Source: Xanthostigma xanthostigma
Taxonomy: Eukaryota > Arthropoda > Insecta > Raphidioptera > Raphidiidae
Direction: 5' to 3'
NCBI GenBank assembly: GCA_963575645.1
Contig: OY754470.1
Coordinates: 46,779,201-46,843,200 of the forward strand
Length of the DNA: 64,000 nt
Within the stretch, counting starts at the first letter, position 1; the number at the start of each line of letters is the position of its first letter. Shown here piece after piece: positions 9,243 through 61,925 of this stretch. Made by a program: the position numbers and the translations under genes. The notes below the pieces were generated by a model. The model ran no database searches, was not told the origin of the DNA, and worked only from the letters and a program-made list of their open reading frames with translations.

Positions 9243-9724
9243 GATAAGATAAGATAAGATAGTTTATTAGTGTTAAAACTTAAGTTTACACAAGTCGTAC
9301 AGTTACAAAATTTAAAGTTTAATATTAAAAAACTCTTCAATTGAATAAAAGCTATTCTTAATAAGAAGAGTTTTTATTTGTTTTTTGAATTTATGTTCCG
9401 GCAAATCTCTAACAGACTGTGGAAGGAAGTTAAATAATTTAGGGCCATAATAGTTTATGCCAGTTTTTATTTTATTGATACGATAAAAATTAATATGGAT
9501 GTCCATATTGGACCTGGTATTATATGAATGCAGATTACTGTTATTATTAAATTCAGTTAGGTGTACTTTAACGTACATAAGGCAGTGCAGGATGTAAATG
9601 GACGGCACAGTCAACATTTTAGAGATTGCATAATACTCTTTACAGTCCTGTCTATAAGGTAATGAATTAATTATTCGCAGCGCTTTCCTTTGTAGACCAA
9701 ATACTCTATTTGCATAAGCGATAA
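9243..9724 (-). pseudogene. Jockey/CR1-like LINE 3' end with pentanucleotide tail
   Basis: The minus strand encodes a continuous C-terminal reverse-transcriptase tail: YANRVFGLQRKALRII, SYNTRSNMDIHINFYRINK, INYYGPKLFNFLPQSVRDLP and FKKQIKTLLIKNSFYSIEEFF, then a stop near 9312. This series is typical of jockey/CR1 ORF2 ends. After about 50 bases of 3' UTR the copy ends in an ATCTT-type tail (GATAAGATAAGATAAGATAG on the plus strand, 9241-9261). The catalytic FADD region is absent, so it is 5'-truncated. The absence of frame damage over about 135 residues suggests it is younger than the LINE at 61 kb. Confidence 0.88.
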
Positions 9725-9726
9725 TA

Positions 9727-10237
9727 CAGTAGAACATCTAGTTCAGCCTAGGCTAAACTAGTTTGTTCTATCGAGCTTAGGCCAGACTAGTTTGGCCTAG
9801 GCTATACCGGTTTATCTTATCGCATATAGGCAGAAATAGTTTGGCCTAGGCCAGGGGTCGGCAACCTGCGGCTCTTTTCATGTAAAGTTGCAGCTCTCTA
9901 GTTCCATACGCAAAAAATAATTATTATAAACCCTTAAAAATCATCCAATCGATCCATGATTGAGTACCATGTCTATCTCTCAGCCATTTCCACTCGCGTC
10001 TCAGCCGCACTGCCCCCGTCGCGCGTGTCGTCCAAAGATATATAAGCAAATACTATAATACTGAAACGAAAATGTTTGGTGGCTCTTTAAAAACTGGGAA
10101 ATTTTATAAATTGTATTTTTTGGCTCTTCCGTCTCAAAAGGTTATCGACCCCTGGCCTAGGCAAAACTAGTTTGTCCTGAAATAGGCTTTGGCCGGTAAG
10201 ATATATACAAAAAAACCTGGTGAACCTGCTAGTACTG
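9727..10237. mobile_element. Possible pogo-like element holding a CCTAGG repeat array
   Basis: CAGTAGAACATCTAGTTC after TA on the left faces GAACCTGCTAGTACTG before TA on the right. It separates two LINE fragments of opposite orientation. Inside are imperfect units of the type GTTTGGCCTAGGC...AAACTAGTTT (9738-9851, 10155-10200). The terminal match needs a gap, so the class is tentative. Confidence 0.4.
9852..10154. mobile_element. Non-autonomous hAT element, 8-base target duplication GCCTAGGC
   Basis: It begins CAGGGGTCGGCAACCTGCGG and ends with the inverse TTATCGACCCCTG. The palindromic target GCCTAGGC is intact on both sides (9844-9851, 10155-10162). Subterminal GGCTCTT is present near both ends. 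It is 303 bases and non-coding. It landed in one unit of a CCTAGG-rich array. Confidence 0.93.
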
Positions 10238-23355: not shown

Positions 23356-24289
23356 AAACCGGTCAAGTGCGAGTGGGACTCGCACACGAAAGATTCCGTT
23401 CCATCGTACAAGATTTTTTTTCTTTCATTTTCGTATATTGTTAATAGGAGCGAACATGCATGCGTAATATCAACTTAAACGGAGTTTTTTTGTAACTTGC
23501 ATGGCGGCCATTTTGAAATTCGCCATCTTTCTTTCTTTCATTGTCGTATATTGTTAATAAAACCGAACACGCATGCTCAATATTGGCTTAATCGGAGTTT
23601 TCTTTTCTAATTTGCATGGCGGCCATTTTGAAATTCGCCATCTTTCTTTCTTTCAATGTCGTATATTGTTAATAGGACCGAACACGCATGTTCAATATCG
23701 GCTTAATCGGAGTTTTTTTTTCTAATTTGCATGGCGGCCATTTTGAAATTCGCCATCTTTCTTTCTTTCATTGTCGTATATTGTTAATAGGACCGAACAC
23801 GCATGCTCAATATTGGCTTAATCGGAGTTTTCTTTTCTAATTTGCATGGCGGCCATTTTGAAATTCGCCATCTTTTTTTCTTTCATTGTCGTATATTGTT
23901 AATAGGACCGAACACGCGTTCTTAATATCAGCTTAATCGGAGATTCTTTCTAATTTGCATGGCGGCCATTTTGAAATTCGCCATCTTTCTTTCTTTCATT
24001 GTCGTATATTGTTAATAGGACCGAACACGCATGCTCAATATCGGCTTAATCGGAGTTTCCTTTTCTAATTTGCATGGCGGCCATTTTGAAATTCGCCATC
24101 TTGGTTTTTCATTATTTTTGTTGTAGCAACAATAGAAATACACACTCTCTACCTATTACGATTCATGAGATAGAGCCCGCTGACAGACAGACGGACAGCG
24201 GATGCTTAGTAATAGAGTCCCCGTTGGGCATTCTTCGGCAAATTATTGTTTATCTCTTTGTCAGTAATTACTAAGATATTAATAACAGT
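23356..24289 (+). mobile_element. Dispersed element with six 115-base tandem units
   Basis: It starts ACCGGTCAAGTGCGAGTGGG and ends near GATTCATGAGATAGAGCCCG, with CAGACAGACGGACAGCGGAT and TTAGTAATAGAGTCCCCGTT after it, typical boundaries of a widespread insect repeat. Its middle is a minisatellite (23431-24112). A degraded inverted left end is at 3240. No protein-coding frame spans it. Confidence 0.6.
23431..24112 (+). repeat. Minisatellite, six units of 113-115 bases
   Basis: TCGTATATTGTTAATAG begins units at 23431, 23544, 23659, 23774, 23889 and 24002. Each unit includes AATTTGCATGGCGGCCATTT and GAAATTCGCCATCTT. Units differ by a few substitutions. Confidence 0.95.
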
Positions 24290-26222: not shown

Positions 26223-26513
26223 TGTATTTATACCTGACGTTTCATCTACAACTATTTTATTATTTAGAACTATTAGTTTTGTTTCTGTTACTGTTATTAT
26301 TACTGTTTGTTAAAGAAGTACGCTTTCGTTGTGTGTTTAAATGTTTTGTTAAACGTTTATTATTGTAAAGAAAGAAGTTCCACCACGGACTAGAACAGTT
26401 TTGTTACAATATAAAGGTGAATTTGCCATTCTCGTCTTTTTTGACATTATCCAAATAAAAAGTTTGAGTGGTTCGTATCCTACTAATACGCGAATAAAAC
26501 CGTATCGGACAGT
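26223..26513. other. Short unassigned spacer before the LINE
   Basis: AT-rich; may include remains of the minus-strand LINE continued at 27562, but I could not align it. Confidence 0.25.
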
Positions 26514-27561
26514 AACGTGGAATCATCTATCATTTTTGCGGATGATCTAAAAATTTTCCGCTCAATAAAAACTTATTCCGACTGTCATTCTTTACAGATT
26601 GATCTGAATAATATAAACAACTGGTGTGAAAATAATATGCTACATTTAAATATTCAAAAATGTCATTTTGTCCGTTTCACAAGAAATTTAACTAAAGTTT
26701 CATATGACTACCATTTATACAATAACCTTCTGTCAGAGCAAAATATTATTAAAGATTTGGGAATACTTATCGACAATCAGTTGGAATTTGGAAATCATAT
26801 AAATAAAATAGTGTCCAAAGCGAATCAGATGTTGGGTTTCATTATGAGAATAGCTAAACCATTCCACAGTATACCCGTAATGAAAACATTATATTGCTCA
26901 CTGGTAAGATCACAGCTTAAATACGCGTCTGTTGTATGGAGCCCATATTATTTTAACAAAATAAGTCGCATTGATTATATCCAAAAAAGATTTCTAAGAA
27001 CTGTCAATTGGAAATTCAATTTACAATTAACATACGAAAGTAGACTATCTTTAATGAAACTACAAACTCTTGAAGTTAGAAGGAAAATTTCTGATATGTG
27101 TTGTCTACATAAAATTATAAACGGTACAATTAATTCACCCGACTTACTAGCGAAATTTTATTTATCTGCTTCAATCTACCACACTAGGAATAGAGATCTA
27201 TTTTATTTGTCCTCAGTCACGACCAATTATGCCTTTAACTCTCCGCTTTTCAGAATGGCGTACATTTTCAACGATATCAACAATAGAACGGATATTGATA
27301 TTTTTGGGGATACTCTAAAAAATTTTATAAGACAAATTTCTGTTTTTTTGAAGTGAAAATTATATCTTTTCGATTCTCTAAGTTCTATATTATTCAATTA
27401 TGTTTCTTATTTTATTGCTTTTTTTTCTTTCTTTTATATATATAGTTTGTAACAGTGCTGCAAATGTATAATAATTATTGTATAATATTGAGAGCAGGCT
27501 TGTTACTGGACATTGTCTGTTAGCCTGCCAGATTTACAAATAAAATAAAATAAAATAAAAT
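26514..27561 (+). CDS. 5'-truncated jockey-like LINE: reverse transcriptase from the active-site motif onward
   Basis: An intact 279-codon frame begins inside the reverse transcriptase with IIFADDLKIFRSIKTYSDC; FADD is the catalytic motif (YxDD box). It continues NNWCENNMLHLNIQKCHFVR and KDLGILIDNQLEFGNHINK, then QMLGFIMRIAKPF, SLVRSQLKYASVVWSPYY, RIDYIQKRFLRTVNW and a C-terminal FRMAYIFNDINNRTDIDIFG. This order is standard for jockey-clade ORF2. The TGA stop near 27354 is followed by about 180 bases of 3' UTR and an (AAAAT)n tail at 27539-27560. The endonuclease, fingers and first catalytic aspartate are absent, so it cannot function. There are no internal stops, so it is a recent insertion. 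The first ATG is not a real start, as the frame enters from the truncation. Confidence 0.9.
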
Positions 27562-31585: not shown

Positions 31586-32153
31586 AAAATATAGTTTAAA
31601 AAAACTAAAAAACACGCTTTATATCGAACTAAAAAGTAAAAAATATTTTTTTTAAATAAGCTTAAAACAATAATGAATAAAAAAATACTAGTATTATTGT
31701 GAAAAAAGCGTGGGGCGCTTTGTTTCACATTTTCGTACATCGAGCGCCCCACGCTTTTTTCACAATAATACTAGTATTTTTTATTCATTATTGTTTTAAG
31801 CTTATTTTAAAAAAAAAATATTTTTTACTTTTTAGTTCGATATAAAGCGTGTTTTTTAGTTTTTTTAAACTATATTTATTTTTCACTTTTGAGTTCGATT
31901 TATTGTCAAAAATTTGCCGAAAAAAACAATTTTTTTATTTCGGCGTGGACGGGATTAGAACCCACGACCGGTGAATCCGAGAGTTGACGTCAGCGAAGAC
32001 TAGCGCCTTAGACCGCTCGGTCAACGATTGCTCTTACAGTAGTGGCATAACATACTAACAGTAATAAACCACTTGCTGTAGTCCAAACGAGGTTACAAAC
32101 AAACATACATACATACAAACTTACAAGTGAAACTAATATAAAGCGTGTAAAAA
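31586..32153 (-). mobile_element. Fold-back family copy 1: terminal hairpin plus tRNA-like module
   Basis: In element order (minus strand) it begins TTTTTACACGCTTTATATTA (32153), holds a tRNA-like module (31944-32033), a linker, and ends in a hairpin with ~132-base arms (31588-31719, 31743-31877) and a ~23-base loop. The arms contain AAACACGCTTTATATCGAAC, an inverted form of the outer end. Sister copies are at 43086 and 54110. No protein is encoded. Confidence 0.88.
31944..32033 (-). repeat. tRNA-like module (class II, Leu-like) in fold-back copy 1
   Basis: On the minus strand GTTGACCGAGCGGTCTAAGG fits an A-box/D-arm and GTGGGTTCTAATCCCG fits a B-box/T-arm; about 40 bases separate the arms, with an extra stem region as in class II tRNAs. 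The 3' end CCACGCCG has no pairing partner on the 5' side, so this is tRNA-derived and not a working tRNA gene. Confidence 0.65.
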
Positions 32154-43085: not shown

Positions 43086-43660
43086 TTTTTTTTACACGCT
43101 TTATATTAACTTCACTTGTAAGTTTGTATGTATGTATGTTTGTTTGTAATTTTCGTTTGGACTACAGCAAGTGGTTTATTACTGTTAGTATGTTATGCCA
43201 CTAATGTAAGAGCAATCGTTGACCGAGCGTTCTAAGGCGCGGGTGTTCTCTGACCTCAACTCTCGGATTCACCGGTCGTGGGTTCTTATCCCGTCCACGC
43301 CGAAATGAAAGAATTGTTTTTTTCGGCAAATTTTTGACAATAAATCGAACTAAAAAGTGGAAAATAAAAATAGTTTAAAAAAAACTAAAAAACACGCTTT
43401 ATATCGAACTAAAAAGTAAAAAATATTTTTTTTAAATAAGCTTAAAACAATAATGAATAAAAAGTACAAGTATTATTGTGAAAAAAGCATGGGGCGCTTT
43501 GTTCCACATTTTCGTGCATCGAGCGCCCCACGCTTTTTTCACAATAATACTTGTATTTTTTATTCATTATTGTTTTAAGCTTATTTTAAAAAAAAATATT
43601 TTTTACTTTTTAGTTCGATATAAAGCGTGTTTTTTAGTTTTTTTTAAACTATATTTATTT
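43086..43660 (+). mobile_element. Fold-back family copy 2: tRNA-like module plus terminal hairpin
   Basis: It starts TTTTTTTTACACGCTTTATA, followed by a GTATGTATGTATG run, the tRNA-like module (43215-43303), and a hairpin with ~130-base arms (43369-43498, 43522-43656). The loop GTTCCACATTTTCGTGCATC has the opposite orientation, relative to the element, from copies 1 and 3. No protein. Confidence 0.88.
43215..43303 (+). repeat. tRNA-like module in fold-back copy 2
   Basis: GTTGACCGAGCGTTCTAAGG, then TCGTGGGTTCTTATCCCG. Compared with copy 1 it has changes in the D-arm (GCGTTC for GCGGTC) and the T-loop, so it is decaying. Confidence 0.65.
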
Positions 43661-46639: not shown

Positions 46640-49600
46640 ACTTTTTCTTAATACCCTCTAAAAAGGCTGACAAACAACGCACAGCCTAAATCGGGATGTC
46701 TAGAGCCACGAAATTTTGTACACATGTTCCTTATATAGCGTGGATGTATACTAAAAAAGGATTTTTGAAAATTCATCCCCTAAGGGGGTTAATCTGCTAA
46801 GTTTAAACTCTAATATTGACTGACCGTGAAACGCACAGTCTAAACCGGTGGGTCTAGAAGCATGCAATTTTGCACAGAAGTCTCCTATATCAAGGGTGTC
46901 AGCCTGACTTTTCTAAAGGGTCGTTTATAAGATTTAGGGTATGTTAGCGGACTAGACTCTAAATTAAAAACTAAAACACTAATTTGAAATCTTTATTTAT
47001 TTAGTTTAAATCAATTTTCATTTAAAAGTAATAAAAGGGTAAATTATCTGCGGAGTTTGAGGATCCAGACACCTGAGGTCTCTTGTTTTTGATAAGCTCA
47101 TTGATGTCAGGTGTCATATTTGGGGTAATTCGTTATTTTCAGAATAGATCCTGGTCGCAGACCGTATTTAACCTATTGGAGAACCTGGGCACATTAAGAT
47201 AATGTTCCTATGATTTTGACAGAGCACTTTTTTTAATTATTATAGCGAAAAAAATTGTGCTTCAATCTTGAGATTATTGACAGGTTTTTGGGACAATTCT
47301 GCTAAACAAAACAAAAATATTTTAAGCTTAAAAGTTCTAACTGCAAATAGTATACATTCAAATATACCAATATACAAACATAAATTTCCACGCGGAAGAC
47401 GTCGCGGGAAACAGCTAGTTTATGTATATAATTTTTTTTAGCTGTTCGCCTGATACTTTTGTGTTTACATTATTGACTGATGAATTTTTACAGATTGCGT
47501 AATGTCGAATACTGCGAATACCGCAGTCCTAAATCAGAGGTAATGTCTGTAATTTTACAGTTTTGAAATATTTAGACTTAAAAAGCTGCTACATTAATTA
47601 CTCTTTTGTTTCCTTATCAAGCTTATTATGCACGCATAATATCTATATAAATTATATAGATTTAACACTGAGGTGATATATTTTGATATTTTAACGTCTA
47701 TAAAAATACAAAATAAAACTGTTTGGGTACCAAATTATTTATTATTATACCGGCTTGTTTATATTTTGTCAAAGTCGAATTTTAAAACTATTATGCAATA
47801 GGTAATAATATTGCATTACAATACTGTGGGCAGGGCCGGGATTATTGTGTAGACAAATGAAACAAATGTCTAGTGCCCGGTTTTTTAAAAGACCCGGTCA
47901 AACTGTCTATTTTGTAAAGATTTGTAAACAAGATAGTTTACTTTTCTGTTGGATAACTGTGTATAATAAACAAATAAACAAAAATGTATTACTGGCTATA
48001 TGGTTATTCTAAAATCTAAAGAAATTGTGTTTTTATGTTTCTTTTTATTAAAAACTAATTTTTCTGATAATGTAGAATTGTTTTATACACTCAAAAAAAG
48101 ACATATTTGAATTTACTATTTTTCAACTATTTTTCAGATTTCAAAAAGACCAGAGTGAGTTAGTCCGGCCCTGACTGTGGAATGGGTTAAAATTTAGAAA
48201 TATAATTTATTAGATAACAGGCTGTCGCGTTGTTTTATTTTCTATAAATACCTCTTAACTGTTTCTGGGTGCCGGATAGCAAATTTTTTATATTTACGTT
48301 TTATCGATTTTTACACATTTTTTCACTATAAAAAAAGTCTCTCTAAAGGCTGACAGTCAACGCACAGCCTAAACCGGGAGGTCTAGAGCTATGAAATTTT
48401 GCACATGAGTTCCTTATATCAATGTTCCTTAATGTAAAAGAAGGATTTTTGAAAATTCATCCCCTAAGGGGGTTAATCTACTTAGTTAAAATTCTACATT
48501 GACTGACCGTACAACGAACAGCCAAAACCGGTAGGTCTTGAAGCATGAAATTTTGCACAGGATCTCTTTATATAACGTAAGTAAGCACTAAGAAAGGATT
48601 TTTGAAAATTCATCTCCTAAGGGGGTTAATCTAATTAGTTAAACTGTAACATTGACTGACTGTTCAACACACAGCCTAAACCGGTGGACCCGGTCAAACT
48701 GTCTATTTTGAACTGATTTGTAAACAATATACTTTACTTTGCTGTTGGACAATTACTGTGTATAATAAACAAATAAATAAAATGTTGCTTTTTATATGGT
48801 TATTCTAAAATCTAAAGAAAATGTGTTGTTATGTTTCACTTTATTAAAAACAAATTTTTCCGGTTATTTAGAATTCTTTTTATACACTCAAAAAAAATAA
48901 ATATTTGAATTTACTTTTTTTCAACTATTTTTCAGATTTCAAAAAGAGCAAAATGGATTAGCCCGGCCCTGACTCTGGAAGGGGTTAAAATTTTAAAAAT
49001 ATAATTCATTAGATAACAAGTCTGTCGTCTTGCTTTATTCGCTATTTATTTTGGTGTGAGTATAAAAACTATTATGCAGTTATGTTTTGTTTTATTCTAT
49101 TCGTTATAAAAATACCTCTTAACGTTTCTGGGAGCTGGATAGCAAATTTCTGATATTTACGTTTCTGTATAGGAAATTTGCAATGTTCCTTTTTCCACTT
49201 TTTCTTAATAAACCGTCTAGGCTGACACAGACAACGCACTGCCGAAACCAATAGGTCTAAATGCATGAAATTTTACACAGGGGTTCTTTATTTAACGTAG
49301 CTGTGTACTGGAAATGATTTTTGAAAATTCATCCCCTAAGGGGGTTAATCTACTTGGTTAAAATTTTCACATTAACTGACCGTACAACGCACAATCTAAA
49401 CCGATGGGTCTAGAAGCATGCAATTTTGCACAGAAGTCCCCTATATGTCGTAAGTGAGCACTAAAAAAGGATTTTTGAAAATCCATCCCCTAAGGGGGTT
49501 AATCTAATTAGTTAAACTGTTACTTTGACTGACTGTTCAAAACACAGCCTAAACCGGTGGATCTAGAAGCATAAAATTTAGCACAGGAGTTCCTTGTTTT

Positions 49601-49660
49601 ACGTAGGCGAGCATTAGAAAGGATTTTTGAAAATTCATCCCCTAAGCGGACCCAAAAAAA
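46640..49660 (+). repeat. Dispersed satellite units of ~130-150 bases
   Basis: Units contain CAACGCACAGCCTAAACCGG, GAAATTTTGCACAGG and AAATTCATCCCCTAAGGGGG. They start near 46670, 46815, 48352, 48495, 48648, 49222, 49375 and 49520. Runs of two or three are separated by the larger duplicated blocks. Confidence 0.85.
47831..48173. mobile_element. hAT-like element in duplication copy 2
   Basis: CAGGGCCGGGATTATTG and the inverse of CAGGGCCGGACTAACTC, flanks ACTGTGG(G) and ACTGTGG(A). The length, 343, equals that of the copy at 46141, so the insertion is older than the duplication. Confidence 0.8.
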
Positions 49661-49735: not shown

Positions 49736-50990
49736 AGTTAGAGATAAAACTATTTTTACGAAGTAACTTCTTTTCGATAATGACCTAAACTTTCAAGCGT
49801 CTATAATCTGTCCACTTTTATATCACTGATTTGCAATATGCATATTTTGGTTATTAATATTATGTTATCATATTTATTATCCATTAATTTGTTATTGCTG
49901 CAGACTACTACAGACGTTAATAATTTAAGTTGTCGAGCGTTTGTAATCTACAGAGTATCTTAATACATTTATTTATTTATTTATAAATGATAGAATATAA
50001 AATATATATTTCAAAGACAATATATACTTACCCTCTTACTCATCTGATGAACCTCTATAACCTACAATTGATCTATCTATATATCTACTAGACATAGAGG
50101 ATAGATTATAGACGCTCGATAGCTGACGTCATTCCAGACAAGCACTTCGAACGGGTCTATATTCGAAACGGTGAGTGGGGCGAAGCAACGGAGGGACTTG
50201 GTGACTAAACGTGTCGTTTTCTATAAGCCTGCCGAATTTGAATCGGATCCGAGAGATTGTTCAAAATTGTAAAAAAAAACACTAAAGCTATGCGAAAAAT
50301 CTCGTTTTTAGTCTATTTTCGCCATTTTCCAAAAACTCGCTTTTATGGTCCACATGGCCTATACTTATAGGAGAAGAAACTCTAAATAAAAAATAAGCTC
50401 AGCTTTTGGCTTTTGGTTAACAACTTAACAGGCAGCAGTTACATCTCTTTCATTTGTAATCATTTGAAGTGGGCGTCTATAAAATAAAAAGGATTTGTTG
50501 AGAGTTCCGTTACCTTAAAAGTTCAGGAATCGCTGTTCTAAATAAGGAATATATAAAACACTATCAAGCATTGATTGATTATTTTTTATTGTGACTAGAG
50601 GATTGAAAATAATTATTGATTACAAACGATATGCACGAATTAATTTTATAATTATTGTAAATATATTATGTATGTATATGTATAATTAATTAGCAATTTA
50701 TATATTGTTTATTACAGTATTTATGTAAGTAGGTACGCTCAGAGAAGATTTAGAAAAATGGATCAATTCTCAATTTTAAATGATTTTATAAAATCAATGC
50801 AATATTTGCATTGTTGTTAGTATTTCTTAGTTGTATATTAATTGTGTAAATTTATTTTGATTATTAATAGAGAAATCTTGGCAGAAGGGCAGAAAATTGG
50901 TGGTTGCGAGCAAGGGTGGTTGTGAAGTCAGAGATCTAGAAGAGGGAAACGAGGAGAGGCGAGGAGGGCGTGGTTAGAACGTGTATATAT
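49736..50990. other. Unassigned AT-rich DNA, no gene
   Basis: Phrases around 50095-50230 (GGATAGATTATAGACGCTCG) look repeat-derived. No coding frame. Confidence 0.3.
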
Positions 50991-51211
50991 TCGGAACCCA
51001 AAGGAATGGTAAGACCTCTGGTGAGAAATGCGCCGAACTGTCCTAAGGTGGGTTTTTGGCAGGTGATCTATGGAAAAACATGATGGAGGCTAGGTTATCC
51101 TCCATCATGCTTTTCTAAATCGATGTTTACCTGTCAAAAAAAAACCCTTAGGACAGTTCGGCGCATTTCTCACCAAAGGTCTCACCATTCCTTTGGGTTC
51201 CGAATAGATTC
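50991..51211. repeat. Fold-back element with ~105-base arms
   Basis: TTCGGAACCCAAAGGAATGG, GAAATGCGCCGAACTGTCCT and CATGATGGAGG are mirrored across a centre near 51101. A few substitutions separate the arms. Confidence 0.92.
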
Positions 51212-54109: not shown

Positions 54110-54846
54110 TTTTTATACGCTTTATATTAGTTTGGGTTGTAAATATGTATGTATGTATGTAACTAACTCCGTAACGGAATCTTTGAGCATAATTTTCACC
54201 AATTTCCCGAAGTCTGATTAATTTGAAACTTTGCATACGTATCAAGGACCGATGACAATGCAATAATTTGATAACAGTTTCCCATTATCCTTATTAGGAC
54301 CCCCAGGATTAATAAATTCTTTTATAGATCCTCTGTAGTAAACGCTTTATTTTCACCAATTTCCCGAAGTCTGATTAATTTGAAACTTTGCATACGTATC
54401 AAGGACCGATGACAATGCAATAATTTGATAACAGTTTCCCATTATCCTTATTAGGACCCCCAGGATTAATAAATTCTTTTATAGATCCTCAGATTAATTT
54501 GAAACTTTGCATACGTATCAAGGACCGATGACAATGCAATAATTTGATAACAGTTTCCCATTATCCTTATTAGGACCCCCAGGATTAATAAATTCTTTTA
54601 TAGATCCTCAAACTAAAAAGTGAAAAATAAAATATAGTTTAAAAAAAACTAAAAAACACGCTTTATATCGCACTAAAAAGTAAAAAATAATTGTTTTAAA
54701 ATAAGCTTAAAAAGCGTTGGGCGCTCGATGTACGAAAATGTGGAACAAAGCGCCCCACGCTTTTTAAGCTTATTTTAAAACAATTATTTTTTACTTTTTA
54801 GTGCGATATAAAGCGTGTTTTTTAGTTTTTTTTAAACTATATTTTT
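54110..54846 (+). mobile_element. Fold-back family copy 3: triplicated module plus terminal hairpin
   Basis: It starts TTTTTATACGCTTTATATTA and a GTATGTATGTATG run like copy 2, but instead of the tRNA-like module it carries three tandem units (54192-54608). It ends in the family hairpin (arms 54630-54725, 54749-54845; ~95 bases), which lacks the central TACTAGTATTATTGTG part of copies 1 and 2. Confidence 0.87.
54192..54608 (+). repeat. Three tandem units (157, 119 and 119 bases)
   Basis: GATTAATTTGAAACTTTGCA begins units at 54216, 54373 and 54492. Each continues TACGTATCAAGGACCGATGA, then GGACCCCCAGGATTAATAAA. The units are essentially identical; the first spacing has 38 extra bases (TGTAGTAAACGC...CCCGAAGTC). 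Confidence 0.93.
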
Positions 54847-56513: not shown

Positions 56514-57131
56514 TCAGCCAGGTCTTTCCGAGCCCACCGTAGTCGTTGCTCCCGCATATTGACACGCCGACAATCCGGCCGACCCGGAGCGCACCGGACT
56601 AACAGCACTCGAATAGGACGTCACAAAACCGGACGAGTGTTGTTTGGCCTTGAGACGCAACGAGGCTATGCTAGAACTCATGGCCGTGCACGGTTCGGCC
56701 GCCGCGCGGTGATGATACATGCTGTACGGATTGGCGGGTGTCGTATACGGACACGGTTGGCCCGGAACGACAGATCCGGGCGCCGCGGTCAAACCGGCCG
56801 TGCCCATGGCACCGCTCAACATCGAACCGGCCGCGGTCGACATGCCGGCTACCGATGTCGCCGCGTTGAAACAGTTGACCGGATTCTGGTGATGGTTAGT
56901 CGGCACCACAGGCCAAGGAAAGCTCTTCGTGCCGAGCGGACTCGGAACTTTGCTCGCCCAGTTGTTGTAAGACGAGTAAGATGAATAGAGCGTGTCTGGA
57001 TCGGTGAACGGTTGCATGAGACCGTTGAATTGGCTGCCGAAACCGTTTTTGAAATCGGCGGCCGCAGCGGCTGCGTTCATAGCGTTGCGTTCGCGCTTGC
57101 GCCATTTGGCACGTCGGTTCTTGAACCATAC
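56514..57131 (-). CDS. Ptx1: Last coding exon of a Pitx/Ptx1-type paired-like homeodomain transcription factor (5' exons not in window)
   Basis: The exon encodes 205 residues and a TGA stop (56514-56516). It opens in homeodomain helix 3 with VWFKNRRAKWRKRERN, homeodomain positions 47-60 plus flank. Lysine at position 50 marks the bicoid/Pitx/Otx/Gsc class, which binds TAATCC-type sites. Then come an alanine run, the block NNWASKVPSPLGTKSFPWPV (about residues 55-75), an Ala/Gly/Ser-rich stretch, and an OAR-like motif SSIASLRLKAKQHSSGF (about 153-169) followed by GLSACQY near the C-terminus. K50 plus OAR plus the SPLGTKSFPWP block is the Pitx pattern; Otx and Gsc lack this arrangement. The start is a splice acceptor (cag/GTATGG at 57132/57131), placing the intron between homeodomain residues 46 and 47, the usual paired-like position. 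The exon is much more GC-rich than its surroundings, as expected for a conserved coding exon in AT-rich repeats. The protein should act in the nucleus. The N-terminal part and most of the homeodomain lie upstream on the minus strand, above 57131 and probably outside the window. Confidence 0.93.
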   Translation of the reverse strand, partial: VWFKNRRAKWRKRERNAMNAAAAAADFKNGFGSQFNGLMQPFTDPDTLYSSYSSYNNWASKVPSPLGTKSFPWPVVPTNHHQNPVNCFNAATSVAGMSTAAGSMLSGAMGTAGLTAAPGSVVPGQPCPYTTPANPYSMYHHRAAAEPCTAMSSSIASLRLKAKQHSSGFVTSYSSAVSPVRSGSAGLSACQYAGATTTVGSERPG

Positions 57132-57150
57132 CTGAAACAAAACAATGGCT
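57132..57150 (-). promoter_or_regulatory. Splice acceptor and polypyrimidine tract of the Pitx last exon
   Basis: On the minus strand the sequence reads gccattgttttgtttcag directly before the exon. It has a T-rich tract and an AG at 57133-57132. The reading frame enters the exon in phase 0 at Val47 of the homeodomain, which agrees with the conserved intron site in paired-like homeobox genes. Confidence 0.85.
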
Positions 57151-57189
57151 GTTAATACTTATTATATTCAACCAAAGTTACAGATGATA

Positions 57190-61048: not shown

Positions 61049-61925
61049 GCTTTTATTTTAAAAAACTGTAAAGTACAGTGTTAAAAATGTCAGGTGAATG
61101 AACATTACAGTAAATATTCATTTAAATTATTAAAAGCGTTTTCCAGCAAATACATTTTCAGAGAATTTTTGAAATGTTTTACATCTGTAGCTAATTTTAT
61201 ATTTGCAAATACATTTTCAGAGAATTTTTGAAATGTTTTACATCTGTAGCTAATTTTATATTTACAGGCAGTTTATTAAAAATAGTTACCCCTAGATGGG
61301 CTGGGAATCTTTTGATTAAATTTAAGCGACTATAAGGAACTCTTAGAGTGCTTTTTTGGCGTGTATTGATGTTGTGAATATCAGAAACTAGTTCATATTT
61401 ATCTTTATTTGTAAAAGTATATAAAGCTAATTCAAAAATGTAAGATGATGTTAAAGTAAATATTTTGAATTTTTTGAAGAGTTCCCTACAGGAGCTAGTC
61501 TGTGTCACCCCGCCAATACATCTAACAATCCTCTTCTGTGAAATAAAAACATTGGAAGCTGAAATCGAAAAGCCCCAGAAACAGACTCCGTAGTTCAGCC
61601 TCGAATGTACCTGCGCATAATACAGGCAAATCAATTGCTGCTGATCCAAGATATCTCTCAGATTCCTAAACAGATAATATTATATAGAATTCAATCTACC
61701 AGTCAAAGTTTCACAATGAAACTTTCAATTTAGGTTTGCATCAATATGCAAACCTAAAAACTTAGTATATTGAACTCTAGATATATATCATTATTATTAG
61801 TCTTTAGAGAGATATTTAGATCAGACCTGTTCTGATGGCTGTGAAAACGTATAAAATTTGTTTTCGTGTCATTCAAGATCAGATATTTGTGCAAAACTAA
61901 ACTTTGGAATCACTCTTGTGACTCA
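60992..61925 (-). pseudogene. Jockey/CR1-like LINE, decayed reverse-transcriptase C-terminal part with 3' microsatellite tail
   Basis: Read on the minus strand, the DNA encodes the region after the reverse-transcriptase active site. A TKFLGLHIDANL-like block lies near 61750, interrupted by stops. An open stretch at 61649-61197 then carries YAQVHSRLNYGVCFWG, QKRIVRCIGG and SCRELFKKFKIFTL. These are the usual landmarks of the jockey/CR1 C-terminal end. The element ends in a trinucleotide tail (AAT and ACT repeats on the plus strand, 60992-61048). A 59-base tandem duplication at 61146-61263 shifts the frame and gives a premature stop. It is 5'-truncated, as most LINE copies are. The same family appears in plus orientation at 10239-10650. 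It lies in the Pitx intron or upstream region. Confidence 0.85.
61146..61263. repeat. Perfect 59-base tandem duplication in the LINE
   Basis: The unit 61146-61204 is repeated exactly at 61205-61263. Because 59 is not a multiple of three, the LINE frame ends early in MYLQI instead of continuing MYLLENAF as in the sister copy near 10530. Confidence 0.9.

Follow-up and report, generated by a model that had tools for sequence, protein, structure and literature searches.

A gene-less, Helentron-like element family in Xanthostigma xanthostigma with a long terminal hairpin found in two loop orientations

Results and discussion

Three copies of one element

The DNA analysed here, hereafter the window, is a 64-kb stretch of the Xanthostigma xanthostigma genome; whole-genome counts were taken over 623 Mb in 28 contigs. 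The window carries three copies of one repeated element: copy 1 (L029) at 31587..32153 on the minus strand, copy 2 (L001) at 43089..43656 on the plus strand and copy 3 at 54110..54845, also on the plus strand. A first-pass annotation had treated the three as one mobile family with conserved ends, and this was confirmed, all three being present with the left end TTTTTAYACGCTTTATATTA in 3/3. The elements are built in the same order: a T-rich border, the left repeat ACACGCTTTATAT, a GTATG run common to all three copies, an exchangeable body, an inverted right end, a loop, and the right end. The last consists of ATATAAAGCGTG, a small palindrome (TAGTTT...AAACTA) and TATATTT, and the ends of the family can be summarized by the pattern T-run/ACACGCTTTATAT ... 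AAACTATATTT.

Both ends carry a subterminal repeat with the core ACGCTTTATAT. On the left it lies at 32136-32146 (minus) in copy 1, at 43096-43106 (plus) in copy 2 and at 54117..54127 (plus) in copy 3, where the left repeat is a variant that begins ATACG; in the ACACG subfamily the repeat is 13 nt long. Near the right end it is inverted, at 43618-43628 in copy 2 and at 54806..54816 (minus) in copy 3, while the hairpin of copy 1 holds two copies, starting at 31614 (plus) and 31850 (minus).

The terminal hairpin had also been recognized before, as a repetition of the outer end in inverted form, and ungapped inverted arms were indeed found in every copy. In copy 1 (hairpin at 31587..31877, minus) the arms pair in successive stretches of 67 nt at 100%, 47 nt at 91% and 40 nt at 100% identity; in copy 2 (43366..43656, plus) in stretches of 75 nt at 97% and 81 nt at 94%; and in copy 3 (54628..54845, plus) in a single stretch of 101 nt at 98%, with a T/C stem mismatch adjoining the loop. 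Folded as DNA, the copy 3 hairpin reaches -108.2 kcal/mol (z -24.5 against 200 shuffles). The two long arms that form the right end enclose a loop of 23 nt. Two features had been missed by the earlier annotation. The first is that copy 2 has its loop the other way round from copies 1 and 3; we call the orientation in copy 2 flip and that in copies 1 and 3 flop. The second is the body of copy 3 (54187..54609, plus), which consists of three direct copies of a 147-nt stretch (100, 99 and 87% identical to the first). Copy 3 belongs to a young subfamily with such tandem-repeat bodies, and copies 1 and 2 have a body with a B-box-like motif.

Several other features were seen in the rest of the window. 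An open frame at 56514-57158 on the minus strand includes an OAR motif (OAR frame 56517-57158) and, by eye, the end of a homeodomain (WFKNRRAKWRKRER); it reads as part of a paired-type homeobox gene, probably Pitx. Another fold-back repeat, at 50987-51207, matches the locus L111 (about 129-378) in both orientations at 78-79%, and the L111 repeat adjoins a shortened copy of the hairpin family. Tandem arrays are present at 23415-24102 (period 115 nt, 6 copies) and at 48350-48685 and 49312-49646 (period 153 nt, 2.2 copies each). Frames at 26487-27356 (plus), 9312-9737 (minus) and 61197-61679 (minus) resemble retroelement reverse-transcriptase tails by eye, with no Pfam match at E 0.001.

Family size and subfamilies

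The exact left end TTTTTAYACGCTTTATATTA has 2,467 matches in the genome (1,220 + 1,247) and its reversed control has 0, so the match is not due to chance. Chance or repeat noise was ruled out as a source of the family by such genome counts, with 0 reversed-control matches, together with the fold score of the hairpin. Viral carriage was rejected after two exact pattern scans of viral contigs, which gave 0 matches.

Among the first 40 exact left ends on one contig (C1), 31 are followed by the B-box-like body and 4 by the copy 3 kind, another 2 bear a hairpin, and 3 are fragments without one. The B-box-like subfamily is the larger and older of the two, its arms differing by ~4-5% between copies. 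In contrast, members of the copy 3 subfamily can be identical. A 531-nt query from copy 3 returned 1,507 candidates, of which 40 were scored: 27 places are 100% identical over the full length, copy 3 included, one is 100% identical over 530 nt, and 12 have one mismatch. A 133-nt stretch reaching from body to loop has 496 exact genome matches for one arm variant and orientation alone. The family is abundant and recently active.

Each arm consists of a unit of about 59 nt, present once or twice in tandem. When 99 copies were described by the number of left units, loops and right units, 54 were 1-1-1, 16 were 2-1-1, 2 were 1-1-2 and 2 were 2-1-2; the remaining 25 were incomplete or odd. Two copies carry two loops. 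L095 has a flop followed directly by a flip, and L028 has the loop and right arm repeated in the same orientation. These double loops are possible by-products of terminal copying.

Two orientations of the loop

The clearest view of the loop comes from the 40 young copies whose bodies are identical or one letter apart over 531 nt. Thirty are flop and 10 are flip. The 21 copies read with their flanks divide into 17 flop and 4 flip (including L141, which has no normal right tip and whose orientation was taken from the printed letters), and the other 19 into 13 flop and 6 flip. In 38/40, the T/C stem mismatch beside the loop is inverted together with the loop; in L133 and L153 the mismatch has been erased, in opposite directions. 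Across the genome, the young subfamily gives 875 flop and 550 flip matches when up to 3 mismatches are allowed, with 0 for the reversed controls. Two hairpin orientations among otherwise identical copies are what a parvovirus-like terminus would be expected to leave.

The older subfamily shows the same two states. When the loop was left out of the query, 40 copies divided into 27 flop and 13 flip, with three of the flop calls uncertain; the calls for L065, L079 and L080 rest on 3-4 mismatches in a 13-mer. L009 had no anchor, such that 59/60 copies entered the loop scoring. In the C1 left-end sample, 34/40 had a readable loop, 23 of them flop and 11 flip. No stem variant in the older subfamily clearly tracks orientation: over about 50 columns, the lowest Fisher p was 0.018, from 8 informative copies, and column 153 was unusable, being within a homopolymer run.

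One explanation would be that the family descends from very few source copies, a single master of each orientation, or a handful of masters, having been amplified and flips being rare, old events. The ratio of 30:10 in the young set does differ from 50:50, and identical copies of one orientation may have a single parent. However, the left-arm variants CGCACT and CGGACT are each found in both loop orientations. Reading the left arm only, we counted 496 exact matches genome-wide for CGG-flop and 44 exact for CGC-flip, with at least 56 CGG-flip and about 100 exact CGC-flop among the matches listed. The four combinations of arm and orientation could also have arisen by arm-to-arm exchange; in L124, for example, the left-arm variant is present on one arm only. 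Among older copies, the tree also speaks against a few masters: on the left parts of 81 of the 99 copies (those with the B-box-like motif and exactly one loop), orientation takes 26 changes against 27.2 when shuffled, with 188/500 shuffles as low, although this tree is weakly resolved (2/78 inner branches starred) and its set, drawn partly with a flip-bearing query, is biased to flip. We therefore regard descent from a few masters as quite unlikely.

Co-variation of the hairpin arms

The two arms of the hairpin were compared with each other in 84 older copies of the 99; the set omits L028, L095, four copies of the young subfamily, and any copy whose loop could not be read or whose arms were incomplete. 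Non-consensus letters common to both arms numbered 66, against 26.5 under shuffled pairing, and 0/1000 shuffles were as high. At one stem site, the two arms read A/A in 29 copies and T/T in 42, with A/T mixed in 6 and a gap or other letter in 7. Single copies give further examples: L088 has a complementary change on both arms, and in L122 the two outer units share a private change. In L016 and L020, only the right arm bears the outer-unit variant (ATATCAAACT, inverted), the arrangement expected if a 2-1 end were inverted to 1-2.

The exchange does not seem to be continuous. Of the 731 arm changes in the 84 older copies, 665 are on one arm only, a figure inflated by misalignment in homopolymers, and in 31 copies the arm distance is 0.042 within a copy and 0.047 between copies. 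Most changes are one-armed, and the arms of one copy are scarcely more alike than arms from different copies, which makes frequent conversion after insertion unlikely. The arms share changes, yet seem not to exchange steadily after insertion, which suggests that they are copied from each other at some particular step and favours one at transposition.

These data bear on a second alternative, in which the element is the same Helentron-like element discussed below but the loop is inverted in the chromosome after insertion, by recombination or replication slippage between the arms, with no hairpin priming at all. Long palindromes are recombinogenic, and both the two orientations and the arm co-variation would also follow from such events. 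To account for the young set, though, inversion in place would have to far outpace substitution, as the 10 flipped copies of the 40 carry 0 or 1 changes in their 531-nt bodies. The excess of one-arm over two-arm changes (665 to 66) and the similar arm distances suggest that conversion in place is rare, and the stem mismatch has been kept in all but two of the 40 copies. We consider inversion after insertion somewhat unlikely.

Motifs resembling Pol III boxes

The first-pass annotation had proposed that two of the copies contain a class II tRNA-like segment with A- and B-box-like motifs, and that a Pol III transcript running into the hairpin would form a natural double-stranded RNA. The motifs are there, in copies 1 and 2 only: the stretch from A-box-like to B-box-like motif, read by motif, lies at about 31951-32025 (minus) in copy 1 and at 43219..43292 (plus) in copy 2. 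The tRNA-like segment was not borne out. ARAGORN found 0 tRNAs in the window, in the consensus and in 30/30 copies; the Rfam matches for copy 1 at E up to 10 include no tRNA; and the module folds no better than shuffled sequences (z 0.14). Of the tRNA-like claim, only the A- and B-box-like motifs remain. These are absent from the copy 3 subfamily, and no tRNA-derived SINE head was found in the family.

A run of 5 or more T is the usual Pol III stop signal. Such a run lies between the B-box-like motif and the hairpin in 90/90 copies with the motif, for example the T7 runs at 31920-31926 (minus) in copy 1 and 43317..43323 (plus) in copy 2. A Pol III transcript would therefore be expected to stop before the hairpin, contrary to the proposed read-through. 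The annotation had also named independent occurrence of hairpin and module at unrelated sites as evidence against its reading. This agrees in part with the youngest subfamily, where the hairpin occurs without the module. From the side of the module, a search with the module only gave 1,008 candidates, of which 40 were scored (39 over 1-131 and one over 6-131), and about 16 of the 40 lie in known copies or beside known left ends. We give almost no credence to a Pol III-transcribed, SINE-like element whose transcript forms double-stranded RNA, even though the motifs are carried by the larger, older subfamily and the B-box-like motif follows 31/40 of the C1 left ends; the tRNA searches, the T runs, the module-free young copies and the lack of target duplication described below all count against it.

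Insertion sites and classification

In the 52 copies where both ends were found, the five letters to the left of ACACGC are TTWTT, the sixth is near background, and the right flank is T-rich. We screened 83 joined junctions for empty sites among all the sequences gathered for this study and obtained six spanning matches. Four pairs (L008/L089, L014/L024, L095/L026 and L099/L098) show insertion into a T-rich site with no duplication beyond the Ts, at sites that are paralogous and diverged. The other two are an ambiguous empty site (L076/L005) and a match between L102 and the window that is too weak. Target duplications, which the first-pass annotation had advised looking for, were absent from the four usable empty sites, all of them diverged paralogous loci.

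The same annotation had judged that the layout fits neither a standard SINE or MITE nor a Helitron. The former judgement holds: both long arms are at one end, and there is neither target duplication at the usable empty sites nor a tRNA head. The latter is right for canonical Helitrons, which have 5'-TC and 3'-CTRR ends and insert between A and T, since the ends and borders of this family differ. It does not extend to the Helentron branch and its non-autonomous HINE/DINE-1 elements, several published hallmarks of which were found. The best classification is a non-autonomous, gene-less Helentron-like element of the HINE/DINE-1 kind, on the basis of the subterminal inverted repeat ACACGCTTTATAT, the GTATG run, the palindrome at the right tip, the T-rich, duplication-free sites and the exchangeable bodies.

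In the available part of the HINE description (PMC4067079), these elements have a subterminal inverted repeat, a small palindrome near the 3' end, microsatellite or tandem bodies, and T-rich targets without target modification and with a variable number of Ts. In our family, a repeat within the expected range (~12-15 bp, at both ends) is present on the left and inverted near the right in 3/3 copies, the right tip carries its small 3' palindrome, and the target is T-rich without duplication, as judged from the 52 copies and the four usable paralogous, diverged empty sites. The repeat positions fit less well. On the left, the repeat is about 5 nt from the end if the T run is included; on the right, the distance is about 26-28 nt. 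For mite HINEs, the same text gives 2-4 nt at the 5' end and 38-60 bp at the 3' end, a wider spacing than the one on our right; this mismatch counts against a HINE fit and weakens the assignment, but as the values come from mite families it does not exclude it. A larger difference is that HINEs, as described there, have a short 3' palindrome, whereas our family repeats its entire right end as an inverted copy, with a flipping loop in between. Another relative in layout is the Hel-2 group of lepidopteran Helitrons, gene-less elements which, from the accessible text of PMC4344730, have a 5' subterminal inverted repeat followed by a microsatellite, and a 3' hairpin. However, Hel-2 has TC...CTAG ends and A/T flanks, whereas our family lacks such ends and is bordered by T-rich sequence.

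An autonomous partner was sought among the Helitron-type proteins of the genome, where a profile search gave 89 Helitron_like_N matches. The family ends were absent at 20/20 Helitron loci, each covering only about 1.5 kb on either side of the domain. One region of 20 kb (L051/L052, C1:60098000-60117999) contains a Helentron with an intact frame of 2405 aa bearing DUF6570, Helitron_like_N, PIF1 and UCH domains and a sub-threshold Exo_endo_phos_2 match. The family ends are absent from this region as well, and the Helentron's own ends differ. A tandem array of ~265-nt units follows the frame. In all, no autonomous element with the family ends was present in the 20 short loci and the one 20-kb region, out of 89 places.

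That no Rep/helicase element with the same ends was identified in these loci, and that the inverted arms are long, would also suit a cut-and-paste DNA transposon that resembles a Foldback or MITE but has an unusual end. A Foldback element has one arm at each of its ends and duplicates its target on insertion. Our family resembles them in having long inverted repeats able to fold back, but both of its arms are at one end, where a Foldback or MITE would have one at each, and there is no duplication at the usable empty sites. The ends, the T-rich target and the tandem bodies match the HINE pattern as far as it is set out in the available part of PMC4067079. We find a cut-and-paste origin very unlikely, and retain the Helentron-like classification.

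A possible copying cycle

The reading we prefer is that of a gene-less, Helentron-like rolling-circle family whose right terminus is a complete, near-perfect palindrome and which is copied in a hairpin-primed cycle; we see this as about evenly poised between right and wrong. In such a cycle, a Rep/helicase supplied from elsewhere would start at the T-rich left end and peel off one strand as far as the right end. This strand would then fold its 3' end into the hairpin and prime a second strand. At the base of the left arm, the inverted right end would serve like a terminal resolution site: a nick there, followed by copying of the unfolded hairpin, would invert the loop and copy one arm from the other. 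The product would insert into a T-rich site. We infer every enzymatic step of this cycle. The young orientation ratio of 30:10 is not 50:50, so either flipping is not complete in each round or there was a founder effect.

The comparison is with parvoviruses. In the portion of PMC1131931 available, the terminal palindrome of AAV is found in flip and flop configurations, and the inverted right end of our family, whose position matches that of the parvovirus terminal resolution site, would likewise provide a nicking site at the base of the stem. On this likeness, we infer that hairpin-primed copying may be tied to transposition in a way comparable to parvovirus flip/flop. The differences from AAV, on the same partial source, are that our family is a transposon without genes, integrated in the genome, that it has no known Rep and bears a hairpin at just one of its ends, and that its hairpin priming is a proposal; the family may work like a parvovirus terminus but is not a member of that group. 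A bolder form of the reading, which we put forward tentatively and hold to be less than evenly probable, is that a rolling-circle lineage evolved parvovirus-like hairpin copying at one end, the peeled strand priming its own second strand and hairpin resolution inverting the loop at transposition. The well over a thousand flip/flop copies would, with the same tentativeness, be the genomic record of this process.

The kind of element is known, as HINEs, and a flip/flop terminal hairpin is not described in the part of the HINE paper at hand. A search of the literature, with subscription papers and Repbase outside its scope, found no Helentron-like element with such a terminus. Among eukaryotic transposons, the copying mechanism stands a fair chance of being new. 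The way in which Helitron- and Helentron-type elements make new duplex copies from a single peeled strand is poorly understood. Near-identical recent insertions with two orientations, a traceable stem mismatch and co-varying arms make this strand-to-duplex step testable from genome data. Should the loop flip at transposition, a mechanism would be common to the rolling-circle transposons of eukaryotes and to hairpin replication of the parvovirus type.
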